Below are positions 52,272 through 64,000 of a stretch of DNA of 64,000 nt, piece after piece. Under the pieces are notes generated by a model. It did not search any database. It saw nothing but the letters and a program-made list of their open reading frames with translations, and was not told the origin of the DNA. A program made the translations under genes and the position numbers. Origin of the DNA: Methylotuvimicrobium buryatense 5G (lineage in GTDB: Bacteria; Pseudomonadota; Gammaproteobacteria; Methylococcales; Methylomonadaceae). The stretch covers positions 3,668,191 through 3,732,190 of the forward strand of contig NZ_KB455575.1 of assembly GCF_000341735.1 (NCBI RefSeq), read 5' to 3'. Position 1 is the first letter of the stretch, and every line of letters starts with the position of its first letter.

Positions 52272-52571
52272 TTATGGCTTATCGACCTTCTCGCGTGAAA
52301 GAGCCAAATCATAAACTTCATTTCGATTTCTTTTTCCGACGGCAAGGACAGTGACAGTGACGGTAGTATCTGATACTGAATAGACTAGCCGATATCCAAG
52401 TTGACGCAGTTTGATTTTGTAAAGGTTTGTTCCTCCGCTAACTGCTGCAGAAGGAACCTGTGGACTGGAAAGCCGCTCTTTGAGTTTTTTAGCGAAAAGT
52501 TCCCGTACATTGGGACCGAGCTTTTTCCATTCTTTCAGGGCACTTTTCTTAAATGCTAACTCATAGATCAT
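52272..52571 (-). CDS. RelE-type toxin
   Basis: A 99-residue RelE protein: YELAFKKSALKEWKKLG, then VREIF-like KELFAKKLKERL, NLYKIKLRQLGYRLVYSV and VLAVGKRNRNEVYDLA. It cleaves mRNA on the ribosome in characterised relatives. I place the start at the ATG at 52571 inside the end of the antitoxin gene (11-bp overlap), which restores the family N-terminus; a longer frame upstream has none. Confidence 0.92.
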   Translation of the reverse strand: MIYELAFKKSALKEWKKLGPNVRELFAKKLKERLSSPQVPSAAVSGGTNLYKIKLRQLGYRLVYSVSDTTVTVTVLAVGKRNRNEVYDLALSREKVDKP

Positions 52572-52809
52572 CCAGGTTAACCTTAATGCTTTCTTCGTCC
52601 ATGCGGCCCCTGGCAATTTCCAGTAGCTCTTTATCTTCTATAAGGTCCATCATAGCTTCATAGGCTTTGGTGGGGATACAATAAAACACAGGCTCATTCC
52701 TGTTAAGCACGGCAATGGGCATGCCTTCTCCGCTGGCTACGACCTTCATGGGGTTGGCTTTTAGTTCGGAGATGCTGGCAGCCACGTCAGTAAGGATTTG
52801 ATGCGTCAT
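52561..52809 (-). CDS. Phd/YefM-type antitoxin of the RelE toxin
   Basis: An 82-residue protein with VAASISELKANPMKVV, VLNRNEPVFYCIPTKAYEAMMDLIED and a C-terminal acidic toxin-binding tail (MDEESIKVNLDDL). It precedes and overlaps the RelE-type gene. Promoter region to the right up to 53022, between two divergent toxin-antitoxin operons. Confidence 0.92.
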   Translation of the reverse strand: MTHQILTDVAASISELKANPMKVVASGEGMPIAVLNRNEPVFYCIPTKAYEAMMDLIEDKELLEIARGRMDEESIKVNLDDL

Positions 52810-56440: not shown

Positions 56441-57385
56441 TTAAGCGGCTTCGCGGGCGCGTATTGGTGAGGCCATAACGCTTTTTTCTTCGATCATATC
56501 GATAAATACCCTTTCCTCGGCAAGAACGCTTAACAGGTTTGACTCCTGCCACGAATAGCCGGTATTCCTAAAAATGTTATCGCGCTCGACCGGATTAAAA
56601 CCGGACTTATCCAGCAAGGACAACAAAACTCGCGCCGCCTCCGTCCACAAGGACTCGGACATTTGGTTATAAATGTCGATTGCGTAACACTCGGCAAAGA
56701 ATGACATAAAAGTGTAGTCGGCTTTCACTTTGCCGTATTGGGCATCATTCAAGCCGGATAATGAAGCCGGCGCGCGAACGATAGCCAACGCCTCAATCGT
56801 GCTGATTCCTTTGAACAGGGCTTTTTTGATCGCGTTTTCATCGGCTCGATACATTGACCTAATTTCCTGATCGATCGCTATTTCATGCGCGGTCGGTTCC
56901 GGCAAGGGGAATAGGTCGATAAGCCGCTTAAGCCGCTTCGATGCGTCAGTCAATGCGCCTATCTCGCGACTATGCGCCTTGATGCGTAAATCAACGAATT
57001 CGGCAATGCGCTTGCTCGACATTTCTAACGACCCCTGTCTTGAGTAACGCTGATCCGCTTGAATTTTTACGATCTCATCTCCCAACGCTTTTGCGGCATC
57101 GTGCAGCGTGCTGAAAGCGGCCCTTGCTTTTGTCCGGTTGGAGTTAAGCTCGTCTATCGTGTCGTTGAGTTCCGAAATTTTGCGCTTGTATCCCTGCGCC
57201 GTGAGTTCGCGGAATGTGTTGTTGTCGGTCAATGGCCGCTCGTGCTGATTGAATCGGCCCGGCCATGGGGCAAGCATGGTTAGCGTATTGGCGATATGGG
57301 CATGCATCGGCATTGATGCATCTTGAATATCGTCTGTTTCGTCGTTCAGGTTAAGCACATAGGCTTGCTGTTTTGAGAATTTCAT
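56441..57385 (-). CDS. coiled-coil hypothetical protein, first gene of the small-gene operon
   Basis: A 314-residue protein with a coiled coil in residues about 65-165 (RKISELNDTIDELNSNRTKARAAFSTL and later DASKRLKRLID) and a helical C-terminal half with FMSFFAECYAIDIYNQMSESLWTEAARVLLSLLD. GAGG lies eight bases before the ATG. It is the gene nearest to the left palindrome array (130 bp away), so it is one candidate partner of that array. No family recognised. Confidence 0.7.
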   Translation of the reverse strand: MKFSKQQAYVLNLNDETDDIQDASMPMHAHIANTLTMLAPWPGRFNQHERPLTDNNTFRELTAQGYKRKISELNDTIDELNSNRTKARAAFSTLHDAAKALGDEIVKIQADQRYSRQGSLEMSSKRIAEFVDLRIKAHSREIGALTDASKRLKRLIDLFPLPEPTAHEIAIDQEIRSMYRADENAIKKALFKGISTIEALAIVRAPASLSGLNDAQYGKVKADYTFMSFFAECYAIDIYNQMSESLWTEAARVLLSLLDKSGFNPVERDNIFRNTGYSWQESNLLSVLAEERVFIDMIEEKSVMASPIRAREAA

Positions 57386-57516
57386 CTAATTAACCTCGAA
57401 AGTTTGAATTTCGGGGTTATTTATACGCTAAAAAGGTAGACTTTGGAATAAGTAAAAACACAACAAGTTGTTTTTATGATATTTAAATGACACAAGATAT
57501 TGTGTTTTTAAGTGGT

Positions 57517-57709
57517 GTGGTGTCGATTGCGCCCCGGGGCGCAAGACTTTTTTCGACTTCGTTACCCCTCGCGCGCGTGGTGTCGATGCTTTGAGTAGCC
57601 AATTGGCTACTAAAATTCCCGTTACCCATCGCGCGCGTGGTGTCGATGAGCTTGTGTCCCATGGGACACAAAGAAATACCTGTTACCCCTCGCGCGCGTG
57701 GTGTCGATG
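57517..57709 (+). repeat. palindrome-interspaced repeat array, left copy
   Basis: Three full copies of a 28-bp repeat (starts GTTACCC(C/A)TCGCGCGCG and ends TGGTGTCGATG) at 57561-57588, 57621-57648 and 57682-57709, plus a 3' half at 57517-57527. Period is 60-61 bp. Every interval holds a different perfect palindrome: 57527-57544 (half TTGCGCCCC), 57594-57611 (half AGTAGCCAA) and 57652-57671 (half TTGTGTCCCA). Same repeat and orientation as the larger array at 63081-63552. There are no cas genes. Sequence between 57710 and 57948 shows no gene. Confidence 0.92.
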
Positions 57710-57948
57710 GCATGCTCAAAAATGGAACCAACTCAAACAAAAATGATTGTAAACAATAAAGCAACAACCGATTCTCTAGCATGATTCCGTGCCAACTCGA
57801 CGCAAGCAAGTAAATATAAGACTTTAAGGCAGGCACGAATATTGGTATAGGTGCTGTTTCGTTTAGTGAAACAATAGAATTTTGCCCCTGTTTGGATTGC
57901 CGGCACATACTGCCTGTGCTGTTGCAGTATGGTCGAATGTCGTAATCG

Positions 57949-59286
57949 TCAGAACGGCTCACTCTTGATAACGTCGAATTCTTTAAGCTGGTAAATCGTG
58001 AGCCGCTTTTTAAAGGTCGAATACCCGAACGGGTGCCTATCGACAATATCTACAACCACTGCTTTAGTTTTGCCGGGATAAGGTCGTCTTGCTCTGCCGA
58101 TGGATTGAATAAGCCTTGTTGCTGCCGGTGTCTCTTTCTCGATTGACGCGCTAACCGGAACCGCGAATACAACGCAGCCCACATGAGGCCAGTTGATACC
58201 CTCGGAAAGCAACGAAAGCGTCCCAACAATAAGTCGGTGATTGGGCGCATCCTTCATGCGCTGTTCGCGGTCCTTTTTGGGTAGCTGCCCATGAATCAAT
58301 AAAACTTCCTCGCCTTCATCCTCGAACAGTTCGAACAATCGTTCTGCGTGTTCGATTGTTCCGGTCATGACAACAACCGATGTATCAACGGTCAATTCGA
58401 TAGCCTCATCGACAATTAACTGATTACGCCCCTGATCCTCGGCCAGAACGGATAAGAACTCCTGCCACGAATCGACCATGCAATCGAACTCAATATGAAT
58501 TACCCGGACCTCTACCGGCAATACAGCGCCTTCAACTTCGCCTTGATCGATCTCCGCGATAATCTCTCCCACGGCGGCAAAAATCATAAATTCTAGATCG
58601 TCCCGCCTCTGTGGTGTGGCGGATAATCCGAAACGATACTTGGCTGGAAGCTGATTGATCGTATTGAATGCCTGCCTTGCCGGTAAATTGTGGCATTCGT
58701 CAGCCAGTACAAGCCCGTAACTCATCCCGCTTAAATCACGATTGGAAAGCGTTTGCATCAATCCCACGGTGAACTGATCTCCTTCGGAACTCTTGCCGCC
58801 ACCAATCAATCCGGCATCCAATCCGGTGAACTCTTTAATGGCCTCGATCCATTGCGCCGCCAAATCTTTTGATTTGACCAGGATCAAGCAACGCTGCCCC
58901 AATCTTGACGCAAGCTCGATTCCCATTGTTGTCTTTCCTGCGCCGGTCGGCGCCACTAAAACTCCTTGTTGGTGTTCCAGGACTTCATCCAGGGCGCGCT
59001 TCTGATAATCGCGCAACTCGATAATGGTTCTAATCTCAACCGGGTGAACTGTTCGGCGGTCGTCAATCTCGATACTGTCACGAAGTCGAACGCCCCTTGG
59101 CACCATAAGGCCGTTGTCGGTTTCGTCGTACAGCCTCAAATTTCGGGGGGTATTTCCGGCATATCGGCCTTGGTTTCTTGCCTCCATGTATGCCGGGTTT
59201 GGATAGGTTAGTTTTTCTTTACATGCCTCAACGATGTTGTCGGGCATATCGATTAATTCAATTTTTGAATGGATGATTGCTTTCAT
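57949..59286 (-). CDS. DEAD/DEAH-box SF2 helicase of the island
   Basis: A 445-residue superfamily 2 helicase. Motifs in order: LRDYQKRALDEVL (Q-like), VLVAPTGAGKTTMGIELA (motif I), LADECHNLPA (motif II, DECH), GLSATPQRRDD (motif III) and the C-terminal QSIGRARRPYPGK (motif VI). The type is that of XPB/UvsW-like helicases found on phages and plasmids. It probably acts in replication or recombination of the element. It follows the RepA-like gene on the same strand with a 150-bp iteron-like region between them. Confidence 0.92.
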   Translation of the reverse strand: MKAIIHSKIELIDMPDNIVEACKEKLTYPNPAYMEARNQGRYAGNTPRNLRLYDETDNGLMVPRGVRLRDSIEIDDRRTVHPVEIRTIIELRDYQKRALDEVLEHQQGVLVAPTGAGKTTMGIELASRLGQRCLILVKSKDLAAQWIEAIKEFTGLDAGLIGGGKSSEGDQFTVGLMQTLSNRDLSGMSYGLVLADECHNLPARQAFNTINQLPAKYRFGLSATPQRRDDLEFMIFAAVGEIIAEIDQGEVEGAVLPVEVRVIHIEFDCMVDSWQEFLSVLAEDQGRNQLIVDEAIELTVDTSVVVMTGTIEHAERLFELFEDEGEEVLLIHGQLPKKDREQRMKDAPNHRLIVGTLSLLSEGINWPHVGCVVFAVPVSASIEKETPAATRLIQSIGRARRPYPGKTKAVVVDIVDRHPFGYSTFKKRLTIYQLKEFDVIKSEPF

Positions 59287-59303: not shown

Positions 59304-59435
59304 TGGTAACAAGGTGTGCGTATCAGGTGTGCGTTACATGCGTTACACTTCTAAAGAAGTGTGTAACGCAACGCAACGCCCGTTACACCCGTTACAATGT
59401 AACGTTTTGTAACGTAACGTAACGCCTGTAACGCC
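59304..59435. repeat. iteron-like GTAAC/GTTAC cluster, possible replication origin
   Basis: About eleven copies of GTAAC or its complement GTTAC, most extended to GTAACG, packed between the helicase and RepA-like genes. It includes the dyad ACACTTCT-AA-AGAAGTGT at 59345-59362 and GTTAC-AAT-GTAAC near 59391-59403. Clustered short repeats next to replication genes are typical of origins or of auto-regulatory operators; which applies here cannot be told. Confidence 0.65.
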
Positions 59436-60575
59436 TTAAAAAATACGCCATGCGAAATTGTCATATTCAACGGTAAGACCTTGATTTAAAAGCTTATTTC
59501 TTACTCTCCAGAATGTTGTTCGTTTTGCTTTTTCGGTGCCTCCGTCAACGACGATAACCTTGTAAGATTTGGCCCTCCAGTGTTCGATATTAACCACCTT
59601 CTGATTGCGCCAACCTGTCCGGCCTGGACCGGCAAATTTCGCCTTGATTTCGCCGGTAGGTTCGACGCCGTGTTTGTCGATCGCTTCGCTTAGAGCTGTC
59701 AAAACGGCATCATCTCGAGCAGACAATTTTCGTTTTTTCAATTCCGGCTTGGCTTCGCCGTCGAAATTGAGATACGCGCTCGTTAACGGTTCGCCTTCTT
59801 CGTCACGCCAATCAAGAGGAACCACGTTAAAGCAAAACTTGATTGGCTTTGGCGGCTCAAAGTCTTTTGCCTTGTTGCAGGAAAGAACGACGTATTCATC
59901 TAATTTGACCGCGCTATATTCCGCATCCATCGCCGCGCGGATCGCTGAACTACCGCGCCCTCGGTCTTTTTCTCCGTGTCCACTATGGTGGACAATCAGA
60001 ACGGCGCAACCAAGCGGCTTAATGTGGTTGTCCAAATTTGAAACAAGCTGCCCGATATCCTTGGCGCTGTTTTCGTCGCCGACCATGTTTCGGTGCATCG
60101 TATCAATGACGACTAAGCCGGGGTTTGGGCAAATCGCTTTGATACTCTCCGCAACCCACGCCGCATTCTGAGCATCGGCAAAATTGCCCGGTTGCTCGCT
60201 TATAAAAAGCTGTTCCGGTGTGTTCATTCCGTACTTTGATTCAAGCGCCTTGAGCCTTCGCGCCAGCCCTGCAAAACCTTCGCCAGCAATAATAACAACG
60301 GGGGCTTGCTTCACCTTTTGACCGTTCCAGGCAATGCCCGCCGCAACACAAAAAGACCAATCAAGCGCAATCAGTGATTTTCCGCTTGCGGGGGGGCCAA
60401 ATAAAAGGTTTATGCTGGCTCGCTCGATGTAACCTTTGACCGCCCAATCAAGCGGTTTCGGTTCGCTGGTCAGCTTTGATGCTCGATGGAGTTTAAACTT
60501 CGGCGGCTCATCGATCTCTATTTGAATCAAGCCCGGCTCGACGACTTCAACACTCTCAAAAATATCGCCGTTCAC
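59436..60575 (-). CDS. RepA-like AAA ATPase (RecA/DnaB-type, AAA_25)
   Basis: A 379-residue hexameric-helicase-type ATPase. Walker A is GPPASGKSLIALDW at about residue 58, Walker B GLVVIDTMHRN at about 150, and VLIVHHSGHGEKDRGRGSSAIRAAMD is the sensor or arginine-finger region known from plasmid RepA helicases. The C-terminal 100 residues (RTGWRNQKVVNIEHWRAKSY) may form a winged helix. The start is a GTG overlapping the upstream stop (GTGA). Probable replicative helicase of the integrative element. Confidence 0.88.
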   Translation of the reverse strand: MNGDIFESVEVVEPGLIQIEIDEPPKFKLHRASKLTSEPKPLDWAVKGYIERASINLLFGPPASGKSLIALDWSFCVAAGIAWNGQKVKQAPVVIIAGEGFAGLARRLKALESKYGMNTPEQLFISEQPGNFADAQNAAWVAESIKAICPNPGLVVIDTMHRNMVGDENSAKDIGQLVSNLDNHIKPLGCAVLIVHHSGHGEKDRGRGSSAIRAAMDAEYSAVKLDEYVVLSCNKAKDFEPPKPIKFCFNVVPLDWRDEEGEPLTSAYLNFDGEAKPELKKRKLSARDDAVLTALSEAIDKHGVEPTGEIKAKFAGPGRTGWRNQKVVNIEHWRAKSYKVIVVDGGTEKAKRTTFWRVRNKLLNQGLTVEYDNFAWRIF

Positions 60576-61366: not shown

Positions 61367-61957
61367 TTAACCCTCCGCCCGCGATTGACGAATGAACCGG
61401 CAATAATCGGCCATTCTCTGTGCGTCGATCTCTAGGCAGAGTAGATCTCCCTCGGTTGCGCCATTGGTGAACAAATCGGCATCAACTCGGGTAATCGATT
61501 CGACAAGCCTATCAATCCTACGTTTTAGGGTAACGTTTTTGGATGCTTGGGACTGGTTGCGCTGGTACGCTGGTTTTGATGTGGTCATTGCGGTAACTCC
61601 ACTTGATAAGGAATAACCGCCACGGATACTTCTCACGGTATCGGGTGGCGGGCTTAAGCAGGGTGAGAAACCGCCAAGTGGAGCGGCCAGCGCCGAACGC
61701 TGCCTGAATAAGCCCGCCATAACAGAATAGACACGGATTAAGGCCGTGCTGAATGGTAGGCATAAAAAAGCCGCTAAAGGCTGCGGCGTTTTGATCGCCA
61801 CTTGAAACGGGTTCTCACGCCCGGCGCTCGTTTTTTTCGAGTGCGCTGAAACTGTACCGCATAGAATCTTATCAGTCAACTTCCAGCGCTTTTTTCTGCG
61901 CCGCTTTAACCGGCTTGGCTTGGTGTTCGGGTCGGCTTGGTAGACTGCGGCAAACAT
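61367..61957 (-). CDS. Icd-like ORF joined in frame to a small regulated protein
   Basis: One frame of 196 residues starting at an ATG that shares a base with the alpA stop (TAATG). Residues about 60-120 (LAAFLCLPFSTALIRVYSV, SVMAGLFRQRSALAAPLGG) have the composition of the 'host cell division inhibitor Icd-like' ORFs of P4-type elements, where the DNA mainly encodes an antisense RNA. An internal ATG at 61588, with GGAG eight bases upstream, gives a 73-residue protein (TTSKPAYQRNQSQASKNVTL, then RRIDRLVESITRVDADLF) that looks like the real product. I would treat the upstream part as regulatory RNA more than protein. Confidence 0.55.
   Translation of the reverse strand: MFAAVYQADPNTKPSRLKRRRKKRWKLTDKILCGTVSAHSKKTSAGRENPFQVAIKTPQPLAAFLCLPFSTALIRVYSVMAGLFRQRSALAAPLGGFSPCLSPPPDTVRSIRGGYSLSSGVTAMTTSKPAYQRNQSQASKNVTLKRRIDRLVESITRVDADLFTNGATEGDLLCLEIDAQRMADYCRFIRQSRAEG
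61597..61760 (-). ncRNA. possible C4-type antisense RNA region
   Basis: On the minus strand CTCCACTTG (61675-61683) is complementary to CAAGTGGAG (61597-61605), which overlaps the ribosome site of the ATG at 61588. A second nested pair, CCGCCAC (61645-61651) and GTGGCGG (61617-61623), lies inside. Phage P1 c4 and P4 cI RNAs act through just such pairs of short complementary segments upstream of the gene they control. Known biology of P4-like elements plus the visible pairing support the call; extents are approximate. Confidence 0.45.
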
Positions 61958-62285: not shown

Positions 62286-62891
62286 TCATTGAAGGTTCAT
62301 AACATCCCGGGTCGTTAGCGGCTCGTCTGGTTGCTCCGATACATTAGCTAAAGCAGCAACAAGACTATGATGTGGCTTTTTAAGCAGTAAAAGTGTTTTT
62401 TCTTTAAGCAATCGCGCCTTGACCAATGCCCGCGCCCGGCTTTGGTTTGACAGTGTTTTTTTGTTCGCATACGCCCCCGCTCCGGTGGCGTCTTGGTCGC
62501 ATATTTCAGACATGATTACCAATAAGCCCAATAGTTCGTTTTTCAGAATATCCGCGCGGTAAAATCTTGCAGTTTTGCCAAAGTTTGTAGCTTTGTCGGC
62601 ATAACGCTGTAACAAGTTAGGGTCGGTCATGCTCAATTGCCTCTGTAATTCAGCCGCCGCGCTACCTAATTCGTTTAATCTTATCGGCTTTGATTCTGGG
62701 TTGACTTGAAAAGCATTAGCGGGAATCGATGCAATATGTAGAAGATCGAAAAGAACCGCCTCATCAAACGATTTTGATAGCTCAACCAAGTTCCTAGAAA
62801 TCTCAGCATCATCTAAAAGCGCCGTCTTAATATCTCGAAAATTCGAATTGATGGTACGGTTACGCAATGCGAAAAGAAAGGGATGATCCAT
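62286..62891 (-). CDS. hypothetical helical protein next to the right array
   Basis: 201 residues from the ATG at 62891 (GGAG eight bases upstream). Helical throughout: NFRDIKTALLDDAEISRNLVEL, LQRQLSMTDPNLLQRYADKATNFGKT, then a basic part SNQSRARALVKARLLKEKTLLLLKKPHHS. It is the only gene between AlpA and the right array and has a 26-bp palindrome at its 5' side, so it is a candidate array partner. No family recognised. Confidence 0.6.
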   Translation of the reverse strand: MDHPFLFALRNRTINSNFRDIKTALLDDAEISRNLVELSKSFDEAVLFDLLHIASIPANAFQVNPESKPIRLNELGSAAAELQRQLSMTDPNLLQRYADKATNFGKTARFYRADILKNELLGLLVIMSEICDQDATGAGAYANKKTLSNQSRARALVKARLLKEKTLLLLKKPHHSLVAALANVSEQPDEPLTTRDVMNLQ

Positions 62892-62930
62892 TGATAACAC
62901 TCCGTTACAAGTGTGCCGTTACGAAAAGCG

Positions 62931-62956
62931 CAAAAGTGCAGTCGACTGCACTTTTG
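62931..62956. promoter_or_regulatory. perfect 26-bp palindrome upstream of the helical gene
   Basis: Half-site CAAAAGTGCAGTC followed by its exact complement; the centre is GTCGAC. It lies 40 bp upstream of the ATG at 62891 and is likely an operator. The TGCACTTTT part also appears in spacer flanks of the neighbouring array (TGCAAAA/TTTTTGCAC), linking it to that structure. Confidence 0.75.
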
Positions 62957-63080
62957 AATCCAACAAATAAGGATTAACCGGAAACGGGGTAACGAATCCC
63001 GCTTGTTGGCCCGTCGGCCTATCCGGTTAAAGTCGATTGTATCAAAAGTTCCCAAAAGCGCACTGCGATTTGGATTTATG

Positions 63081-63552
63081 CACCTCGCGCGTGGTGTCGG
63101 TGTCTCGGGAATTTCTTTGTGCACTATAGTGCACAAACCGTTACTCCTCGCGCGTGGTGTCAGTCTGGGATTTCTTTGGCGCCTATAGGCCCCCAAGCCG
63201 TTACCCCTCGCGCGCGTGGTGTCAGTTTTCCCCCATGGGGGAATTTAGCGACTTTTGTACGTTACCCCTCGCGCGCGTGGTGCCTCGTTTGTCTACCATG
63301 GTAGACAAAGAAATCCCCCGTTTCCCCTCGCGCTCTGGGATTTCTTTGTTGCCCATGGGCAACTCAAGCGATTTATGCACCTGTTACCCCTCGCGCGCGT
63401 GGTGTCGATGGTGCAAAAGAGTTTGTCCACAATTGTGGACAAGTTACCCATCGCGCGCGTGGTGTCGATGGAAGTGCAAAAAAGTTTGTGCGCCATGGCG
63501 CACGTTACCCCTCGCGCGCGTGGTGTCGATGTTTGTCTCCAATTGGAGACAA
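63081..63552 (+). repeat. palindrome-interspaced repeat array, right copy
   Basis: Eight repeats of the GTTACCCCTCGCGCG...TGTCGATG type at 63081, 63140, 63200, 63261, 63320, 63383, 63443 and 63504. The period is 59-63 bp. The last three are complete; the first lacks its start, and the fifth is cut after GTTTCCCCTCGCGC. Each interval has its own palindrome: 63116-63137, 63175-63196 (imperfect, 9 of 11 pairs), 63228-63243, 63288-63309, 63348-63363, 63423-63442, 63488-63503 and 63533-63552. Left halves fit TTTGTNNNCNA, with CATG, AATT or TATA at the centre. Long plus- and minus-strand frames across it (minus peptide IDTTRARGN) arise from the 60-bp period and are not credible genes. Confidence 0.93.
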
Positions 63553-63567
63553 CCTTACCAAATACCC

Positions 63568-63680
63568 CGGCACTTACGGCACTTAACCGCCGTATTACGG
63601 CACTTATAATTTACAAGTGCCGTACCGTGAAGCCGCGCCGTTACTGGGTTTACGGCGGTTACGGCACTTACGGCACTTAG
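63568..63680. repeat. CGGCACTT iteron-like repeats beside the integrase
   Basis: Five direct copies of CGGCACTT (most as ACGGCACTTA) and one inverted AAGTGCCG in about 110 bp between the array and the integrase stop. Position and spacing suggest binding sites for the integrase arm domain or for a regulator such as AlpA, or an origin. No gene is present. Confidence 0.7.
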
Positions 63681-63696
63681 AAACCTACCTTTCCTA

Positions 63697-64000
63697 TTAG
63701 CTTACCTTCTTAAACGGTATAACCTCCGCTCCATTTCTTAATCCGTCCAAATGATCTGCCCACGCTTGCATCATCTTTACCCGCTCCGGTAGATATTGCG
63801 CCCGGTTATAGGCGGCCCTCACGTTATCGCGTGGCATATGGCAGAGCTGCCGCTCGATCGCATCGGGAGAGAATCCTAATTCGTTCAGGATCGTTGAAGC
63901 GACACTTCTAAAGCCGTGCGCGGTCATGGTCTTGCCGTCATAGCCCAATGTCTTTAGGGCTTGGTTTACGGTGTTTTCTGATAATGGACGGCCCGGCCTT
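63697..64000 (-). CDS. P4-type tyrosine integrase, C-terminal part (cut by window edge)
   Basis: About 101 C-terminal residues are visible and the frame stays open to the edge (RPGRPLSENTVNQALKTLGYDG before the TTG at 63948). Catalytic residues seen: Arg in TAHGFRSVAS, His in QLCHMPRDNVR and the Tyr nucleophile in AAYNRAQYLPER. This is the P4/prophage integrase pattern (DUF4102-containing family). All island genes follow it leftwards, so the attachment site on this side lies beyond 64000. Confidence 0.93.
   Translation of the reverse strand, partial: RPGRPLSENTVNQALKTLGYDGKTMTAHGFRSVASTILNELGFSPDAIERQLCHMPRDNVRAAYNRAQYLPERVKMMQAWADHLDGLRNGAEVIPFKKVS

Follow-up and report, generated by a model that had tools for sequence, protein, structure and literature searches.

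CRISPR-like repeat arrays with self-complementary spacers in a putative phage satellite of Methylotuvimicrobium buryatense

A satellite element and its two arrays

The stretch of DNA analysed here (the window, 64,000 nucleotides from Methylotuvimicrobium buryatense 5G) holds two repeat arrays, A and B, in a mobile element with the following features, given in positions of the window.

65053-65139 (beyond the window): tRNA-Leu(taa), adjoining the integrase
63697..64000, minus strand: 3′ part of a tyrosine integrase gene, which continues past the window to about 64893
63082..63556, minus strand: array A, made up of eight units, each a repeat and a palindrome (about 28 + 33 nt); its strand is the one reading CCACGCGCGCGAGG, the same as that of the element's genes
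62960..63029, minus strand: int-alpA RNA (RF02996), RNA family match
62286..62900, minus strand: 204-aa ORF near array A, no family recognised (ORF list, Pfam)
61641..61724, minus strand: C4 antisense RNA (RF01695), RNA family match
59436..60575, minus strand: AAA_25 (RepA-like) ATPase (Pfam)
59310..59440, no strand: iteron-rich stretch (CGTTAC/GTAACG) with ACACTTCTAAAGAAGTGT, by inference a probable replication origin
57949..59286, minus strand: ResIII/DEAD helicase (Pfam)
57510..57720, minus strand: array B, three full repeats and one partial, with three perfect palindromes (core and palindrome scans)
56441..57385, minus strand: 314-aa ORF adjoining array B, no family recognised (ORF list, Pfam)

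Judged by gene content, the carrier of both arrays is a P4-like phage satellite, with a tyrosine integrase by a tRNA gene, a replication ATPase, and C4 and int-alpA RNAs. Among the element ORFs scanned none was recognised as structural, the tRNA 3′ end expected as left attachment copy was not found on the left side of the element, and a 77-aa ORF at the position expected for AlpA had no Pfam match. For the 204-aa ORF, searches of 368 other genomes, of plasmids and of viral contigs turned up no relative. An 18-bp palindrome (ACACTYCTATAGRAGTGT type), close to where the AAA_25 ATPase gene ends, is largely conserved in the window, L410, L412, L415, L417, L419 and L426-L429; where its context was read (L410, L415 and the window), it sits among element-specific iterons, GTAACG, GGGACA and GAACA. 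These ATPase-end sites are probably origins in which the iterons change and the 18-bp palindrome stays constant. A separate perfect palindrome of 26 bp (CAAAAGTGCAGTCGACTGCACTTTTG, 62931-62956) adjoins the int-alpA RNA and is terminator-like on the minus strand, and a ParE-like toxin ORF is present at 52272-52616.

Array A is built on a 28-nt repeat (GTTACCCCTCGCGCGCGTGGTGTCGATG), GC-rich and with a palindromic stem. Its exact core CGCGCGTGGTG starts at 63086, 63149, 63211, 63272, 63394, 63454 and 63515, unit 5 carries a truncated copy (GTTTCCCCTCGCGC, 63320-63333), and unit spacing is 59-63 bp. The initial annotation had described eight units with a period of about 60 bp, each with a palindrome that is perfect in seven units (16-22 bp) and mismatched at two pairs in the other, and had likened the layout to CRISPR; the palindrome scan reproduced this description, and the repeat length and spacing bear out the likeness. 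It had reported a single array: array A is real, but array B had been missed. The palindromes, which have no strand, are as follows.

63116..63137: unit 1, perfect, 22 bp (palindrome scan)
63175..63196: unit 2, imperfect, two mismatched pairs (sequence, pair alignment)
63228..63243: unit 3, perfect, 16 bp (palindrome scan)
63288..63309: unit 4, perfect, 22 bp (palindrome scan)
63348..63363: unit 5, perfect, 16 bp, beside the truncated repeat (palindrome scan)
63423..63442: unit 6, perfect, 20 bp (palindrome scan)
63488..63503: unit 7, perfect, 16 bp (palindrome scan)
63533..63552: unit 8, perfect, 20 bp (palindrome scan)
57527-57544, 57594-57611 and 57652-57671: array B, perfect (palindrome scan)

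Searched with up to three mismatches, the 17-nt core matched the window 10 times where chance predicts 0.25, every match lying in array A or B, and the repeat copies have a mean identity of 0.92 (8 of 12 copies, those matching the full core). The 64-kb window contains 14 perfect palindromes of 16 bp or longer, and ten of them fall within the two arrays; when array A was shuffled 2000 times, such palindromes averaged 0.007 per shuffle and never exceeded one. Downstream of the last repeat of array B there is no perfect palindrome of 12 bp or longer. In array A the repeats are in register but the palindromes are not, their centres being 59, 50, 63, 57, 77, 63 and 47 bp apart. One spacer flank, GGGATTTCTTTG, is present in both orientations (two inverted pairs), and so, seemingly and by eye, is a second, GTGCAAAAGAG. 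The half-sites read roughly TTTGT-NNN-C-N-A, where NNN differs between units and is mirrored within each. Repeats of TTACGGCACTTA, possibly integrase arm sites, occupy 63565-63680, between array A and the integrase stop.

Some simpler readings were set aside. Not all unit lengths are divisible by three, which disfavours protein coding (peptide IDTTRARGN), and a terminator scan flagged only 3 of the 11 palindromes, which disfavours a terminator array. Nor is the palindrome type dispersed over the genome: 59 loose matches to GATTTCTTTGTNNNC were found, and among the 30 inspected the only palindromic ones were two within array A.

Pairing, not sequence, is conserved in the spacers

As the initial annotation had proposed, it is pairing rather than sequence that is conserved in the array spacers. 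When the 11 palindromes of arrays A and B are aligned, 87 of the 88 cells in their eight inner pairs (columns 4-11 with 12-19) hold standard pairs; both sides have changed in 26 cells and one side alone in none, and 89.3% of cells pair over all 11 pairs. The covariation score is 0.673 compared with 0.165 for shuffled sequences (0/500 reach 0.673), and slid registers give at most 0.227. The two innermost pairs pair in 22/22 cells, with three and two pair types, and none of the eight inner positions holds a G-U pair. Folded in the coding sense, the 11 palindromes form local hairpins (mean pair probability 0.44-1.00), and the array fold is strong (z -6.2; equalled by 0/100 shuffles).

This symmetry may have its basis in RNA or in DNA. 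A hairpin loop needs no symmetry at its centre; the symmetry through the centre and the lack of G-U in the inner eight pairs both favour a cause at the DNA level. The array could be a cis site whose palindromes are bound by a dimeric protein or form cruciforms, in the manner of iterons or P4 crr, for replication, partition or packaging. The partly conserved half-site agrees with this, as do the start of the array repeat, GTTAC, which by eye is like the iterons of the probable origin, and the repeat-built cis replication region that P4 has adjoining attP. However, half-sites vary between elements, symmetric change at the variable positions is unexpected for protein sites, several loops in two related arrays described below (L598 and L570) are asymmetric, and 40 regions around relatives of the AAA_25 ATPase contained no such array. 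We consider a DNA site rather unlikely overall. If the array does act as DNA, it would be a cis element that keeps its self-complementarity while its sequence drifts, which is itself unusual. Among the roles offered by the initial annotation, a set of hairpin RNAs is the one that we favour, a replication or centromere site is a less likely candidate, and a cassette array under site-specific recombination drew no specific support.

It is also conceivable that the palindromes are kept by mutation alone, through template-switch correction of quasi-palindromes and tandem duplication, in a functionless relic of a CRISPR-like array. The inner eight pairs, free of any one-sided change, and the flank found in both orientations fit such inverted-copy mutation, and a viral array that is part hairpin and part ordinary (L668) fits a relic as well. 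The good conservation of the repeats (mean identity 0.92 in the 8 of 12 copies counted) and the recurrence of the pattern in separate elements make this improbable.

At the RNA level, the tandem hairpins of the satellite may instead be a structured regulatory RNA unrelated to CRISPR, such as a sponge, an attenuator or a stability element, whose CRISPR-like period and core are coincidental. This reading, possible though doubtful, draws on the strong fold, the covariation, the strand shared with the genes, and the int-alpA and C4 RNAs nearby; pairing with the C4 RNA was tried as a candidate and was no better than in shuffles. It leaves unexplained why the units follow a 28 + 33 layout, why the period hardly varies although the hairpins are unphased, and why arrays with ordinary spacers have the same core.

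Related arrays with hairpin or ordinary spacers

The int-alpA RNA was found in 140 of 301 genomes of the order, and a scan of 163 loci (1.57 Mb, some overlapping; L341 not centred on its own int-alpA match) gave a comparable array in one, L455 of genome G279. It consists of five repeats (CCCTCGCGCGCGTGGGTGCCGT) spaced 61, 61, 63 and 61 bp apart, and all four spacers between them are hairpins; the surrounding element encodes an AAA_25 ATPase and an integrase of its own. As an array, the L455 repeat occurs in G279 only, of 311 genomes of the order, with single two-mismatch matches in three others. The scan also flagged loci for clusters of imperfect palindromes, of which L463, L485 and L487 were inspected and held no array; L366/L430 and L376/L440 were flagged too. 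The exact window repeat formed no array in 236 other genomes of the family, where it gave two single matches with three mismatches, and repeat scans with an 18-mer (genome contigs) and a 15-mer (viral contigs) gave one match per locus among the matches listed. In GC-rich genomes, a loose pattern run across the class gave no useful signal; a tandem pattern, applied to 18 of these genomes, gave three matches, of which L561 was inspected and is no array.

Tandem-core scans of viral contigs added at least three arrays with hairpin spacers. L598, a 10.9-kb sequence with integrase, HTH_17, AAA_25, terminase, portal and capsid genes, has an array of seven units in which one spacer is a 32-bp palindrome. 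L570 is a 4.3-kb fragment with a capsid gene and three hairpin-like spacers; its hairpins, like several of those in L598, have loops that are not self-complementary. In L668, part of a 30.6-kb contig, the spacers are partly hairpins. The last of these scans covered L583-L696, with L668 and L666 coming from L660-L696. Many further tandem matches in viral contigs look, by appearance, like coding repeats.

The viral-contig scans also returned arrays that resemble these in core and approximate period while having ordinary spacers, at least in L615, L666, L622, L577, L571/L582, L578, L562/L580, L565/L566 and others. L615 (3310-4000, in a 208-kb viral contig) has 11 repeats with a period of 61, and L666 (3900-5050, in a 47-kb viral contig) about 15 with a period of 61, some 59; no effector was identified beside these two arrays. 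Cas12f/TnpB-like genes adjoin the arrays of L577, L571 and L578, and by eye a Cas12f/TnpB-type gene lies alongside the L622 array together with a Transposase-2 RNA. The regions L577:3745-6035, L571:11650-13535 and L578:3640-5017 are candidate compact phage CRISPR systems in their own right, with a CGCGCGCG-core repeat and a period of about 61 bp.

Repeat resemblance among all these arrays is largely imposed by the search patterns; outside the pattern core, the window repeat resembles the others at a borderline level (p 0.003-0.65 in 13 uncorrected tests), best in L567 (0.003), L562 (0.036), L589 (0.036) and L577 (0.039). The array strand, taken from the asymmetric core, matches that of 43 of 53 neighbouring ORFs, mechanically called, over 16 arrays that exclude L668 and L666. 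Agreement is low in L567 (0/2, opposing its neighbours), L455 (1/3), and L577 and L562 (2/4), and the strand of L598 is uncertain because its repeats are nearly symmetric.

Spacers were scored by their best hairpin against dinucleotide shuffles, with a cut-off of p ≤ 0.02, leaving out the interval past the last repeat in B, L455, L570 and the control arrays. Self-complementary spacers make up 7/8 in array A, 3/3 in B, 4/4 in L455, 5/7 in L598 (a count that takes in two units outside the first motif split) and 2/3 in L570 (the third at 0.044), or 21/25 when pooled. L668 is intermediate with 3/7, two further spacers reaching 0.036 and 0.10; one of its spacers was scored at 33 nt and a second hairpin follows beyond the cut. 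The ordinary arrays gave 0/10 in L615, 0/7 in L577, 0/6 in L571, 0/4 in L622, 0/2 each in L562, L565 and L578, 0/1 in L567, 1/15 in L666, 0/6 in L589 (two near 0.05), 0/1 in L581 (0.036) and 0/1 in L610 (0.03), so that the twelve with a similar core pool to 1/57; host type I-E arrays (L706, L721, L711 and L700) gave 1/84. As the hairpin and ordinary classes are set by the very property tested, these counts sort the arrays into two kinds and place L668 in between; they are not an independent test. The idea that homologous arrays would carry palindromic intervals everywhere thus held in part: hairpin spacers with a similar core occur in L455, L598, L570 and partly L668, but ordinary ones in, for example, L615, L577, L571, L622, L666 and L589.

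The CRISPR link, a possible decoy role and known systems

The statement of the initial annotation that there are no cas genes stands for the element ORFs scanned, where Pfam, and for four ORFs also PADLOC, recognised no more than general helicase similarity; it does not extend to the chromosome, which elsewhere has cas1 and cas2 loci, type I-E arrays and two other CRISPR arrays, which we take to be I-C and III. The cas2 gene of the type I-E locus lies at 3816562, some 85 kb away from array A. The repeat of this locus is GCGTTCCCCACACCCGTGGGGATGAACCG, recurring every 61-62 bp, and in period the host I-E arrays (mostly 61-62) equal our arrays (about 61 bp). G279 likewise has I-E, and an I-E-type Cas2 was found in 52 of 147 genomes of the order. 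Mimicry of the host's own CRISPR repeats was considered and rejected: similarity is not significant for the window repeat against its own I-E repeat (genome G000, p=0.10) or the host repeat called I-C (p=0.10), nor for L455 against G279 (p=0.07). Better host-repeat scores (p about 0.001-0.03, in 80 uncorrected tests) were obtained for L562, L615 and L577, which have ordinary spacers, and for L570 and L598.

None of 1200 spacers from 19 genomes matches the island at 34 bits. One I-E spacer of G000 weakly matches viral-contig relatives of the ATPase (20/21 bases). In G279, a non-I-E array (L522, contig C51) has a spacer matching the satellite relatives L430 (30/31) and L465 (32/34), which indicates that satellites of this type are CRISPR targets in the order; the array also matches the element relative L342, weakly. 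Conversely, phage or plasmid protospacers, which would have gone against the initial annotation, were sought for arrays A and B by blastn and gave no match at E 1e-5, a search that a 33-nt spacer with several mismatches could escape.

The arrays are thus CRISPR-like in layout: apart from a truncated and a partial copy, their repeats are almost identical, evenly spaced and as long as CRISPR repeats. They depart from CRISPR in spacer origin and cas linkage: their spacers are self-complementary, share a flank and match no phage or plasmid record, no cas genes lie nearby, and their repeat equals that of no cas-linked array in the genome. The same spacer properties disfavour an ordinary CRISPR array with captured spacers. 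A working array aimed at rival elements via a host effector would be in keeping with the period and repeat length, and mini-arrays on mobile elements are known (PMC11656645, in the portion available). With self-complementary, flank-sharing spacers that match no phage or plasmid, and a repeat unlike the three CRISPR repeats found in G000, we regard such function as very improbable.

We hypothesize that A and B, CRISPR-like arrays with hairpin spacers and no cas genes, serve as RNA decoys of phage satellites, a role to which we assign a probability of about one in three. The array would be transcribed together with the element's genes, and its transcript would yield crRNA-like RNAs with a hairpin in place of the guide. 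Such RNAs could occupy a CRISPR effector, either the host type I-E or the Cas12f/TnpB-type effector of a rival phage, and leave it unguided, much as RNA-based anti-CRISPRs do; the spacers could then drift in sequence so long as they still pair with themselves. This reading is favoured by the similar layout in other elements, the self-complementarity and covariation of the spacers, the Cas12f/TnpB-like neighbours of core-sharing arrays, the I-E-like period, the strand agreement with ORFs, the asymmetric loops of L598 and L570, and the local hairpin folding of the 11 window palindromes. It is weakened by the lack of significant host-repeat resemblance, the island left unmatched by 1200 spacers, the repeat likeness imposed by patterns, array classes set by the tested property, the intermediate L668 and the opposing neighbours of L567.

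The architecture itself is real and recurrent in several elements. The initial annotation knew of no described system like it, and neither does the literature that we searched, in which bioRxiv lay outside the scope and subscription journals were thinly covered. Tentatively, we propose a new class of CRISPR-like repeats with self-complementary spacers among satellites and related elements, which would load CRISPR or Cas12/TnpB-type effectors with unguided hairpins under selection on self-pairing. Whatever the role, a period of about 61 bp with self-complementary spacers is a computable signature for such arrays.

Several known systems come close. The crr of P4 (X51522) is likewise a repeat-built cis region near the att of a satellite, but consists of two 120-bp repeats with 8-bp iterons, and no palindromic spacers are annotated in it. 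The phage-type arrays L577, L571, L578 and L622 have in common with ours the repeat core CCTCGCGCG and the period of about 61 bp; they differ in having an adjoining effector-like gene and 0/19 self-complementary spacers (7, 6, 2 and 4 spacers, respectively). Viral CRISPR mini-arrays, as far as the available part of their description goes (PMC11656645), share the repeat-spacer layout, the mobile element and the lack of cas genes, but their repeats are identical to those of the host and they are aimed for the most part at related viruses, whereas the spacers of A and B are self-complementary and had no match in the collections searched. The RNA-based anti-CRISPRs (Racr) are single repeat units, identified because they match CRISPR repeats already known; in the accessible sections of that study (PMC10651486) they too are cas-less CRISPR-like repeats on phage-related elements of CRISPR-Cas hosts with a proposed decoy action. 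A and B differ from these single repeats (PMC10651486, same sections) in being arrays of 8 and 4 copies with hairpin spacers and weak host-repeat similarity (p=0.10), and so lie outside Racr on both mimicry and solitary repeat. The SRUFinder search of that study, by the same sections, sets clustered repeats aside, so arrays like A and B are not expected in its reports (PMC10651486), and if the decoy role is true, no repeat search that discards arrays would be expected to detect them. Satellites would in that case disarm CRISPR by arrays of dummy guides, multi-unit kin of the single-repeat RNA anti-CRISPRs.
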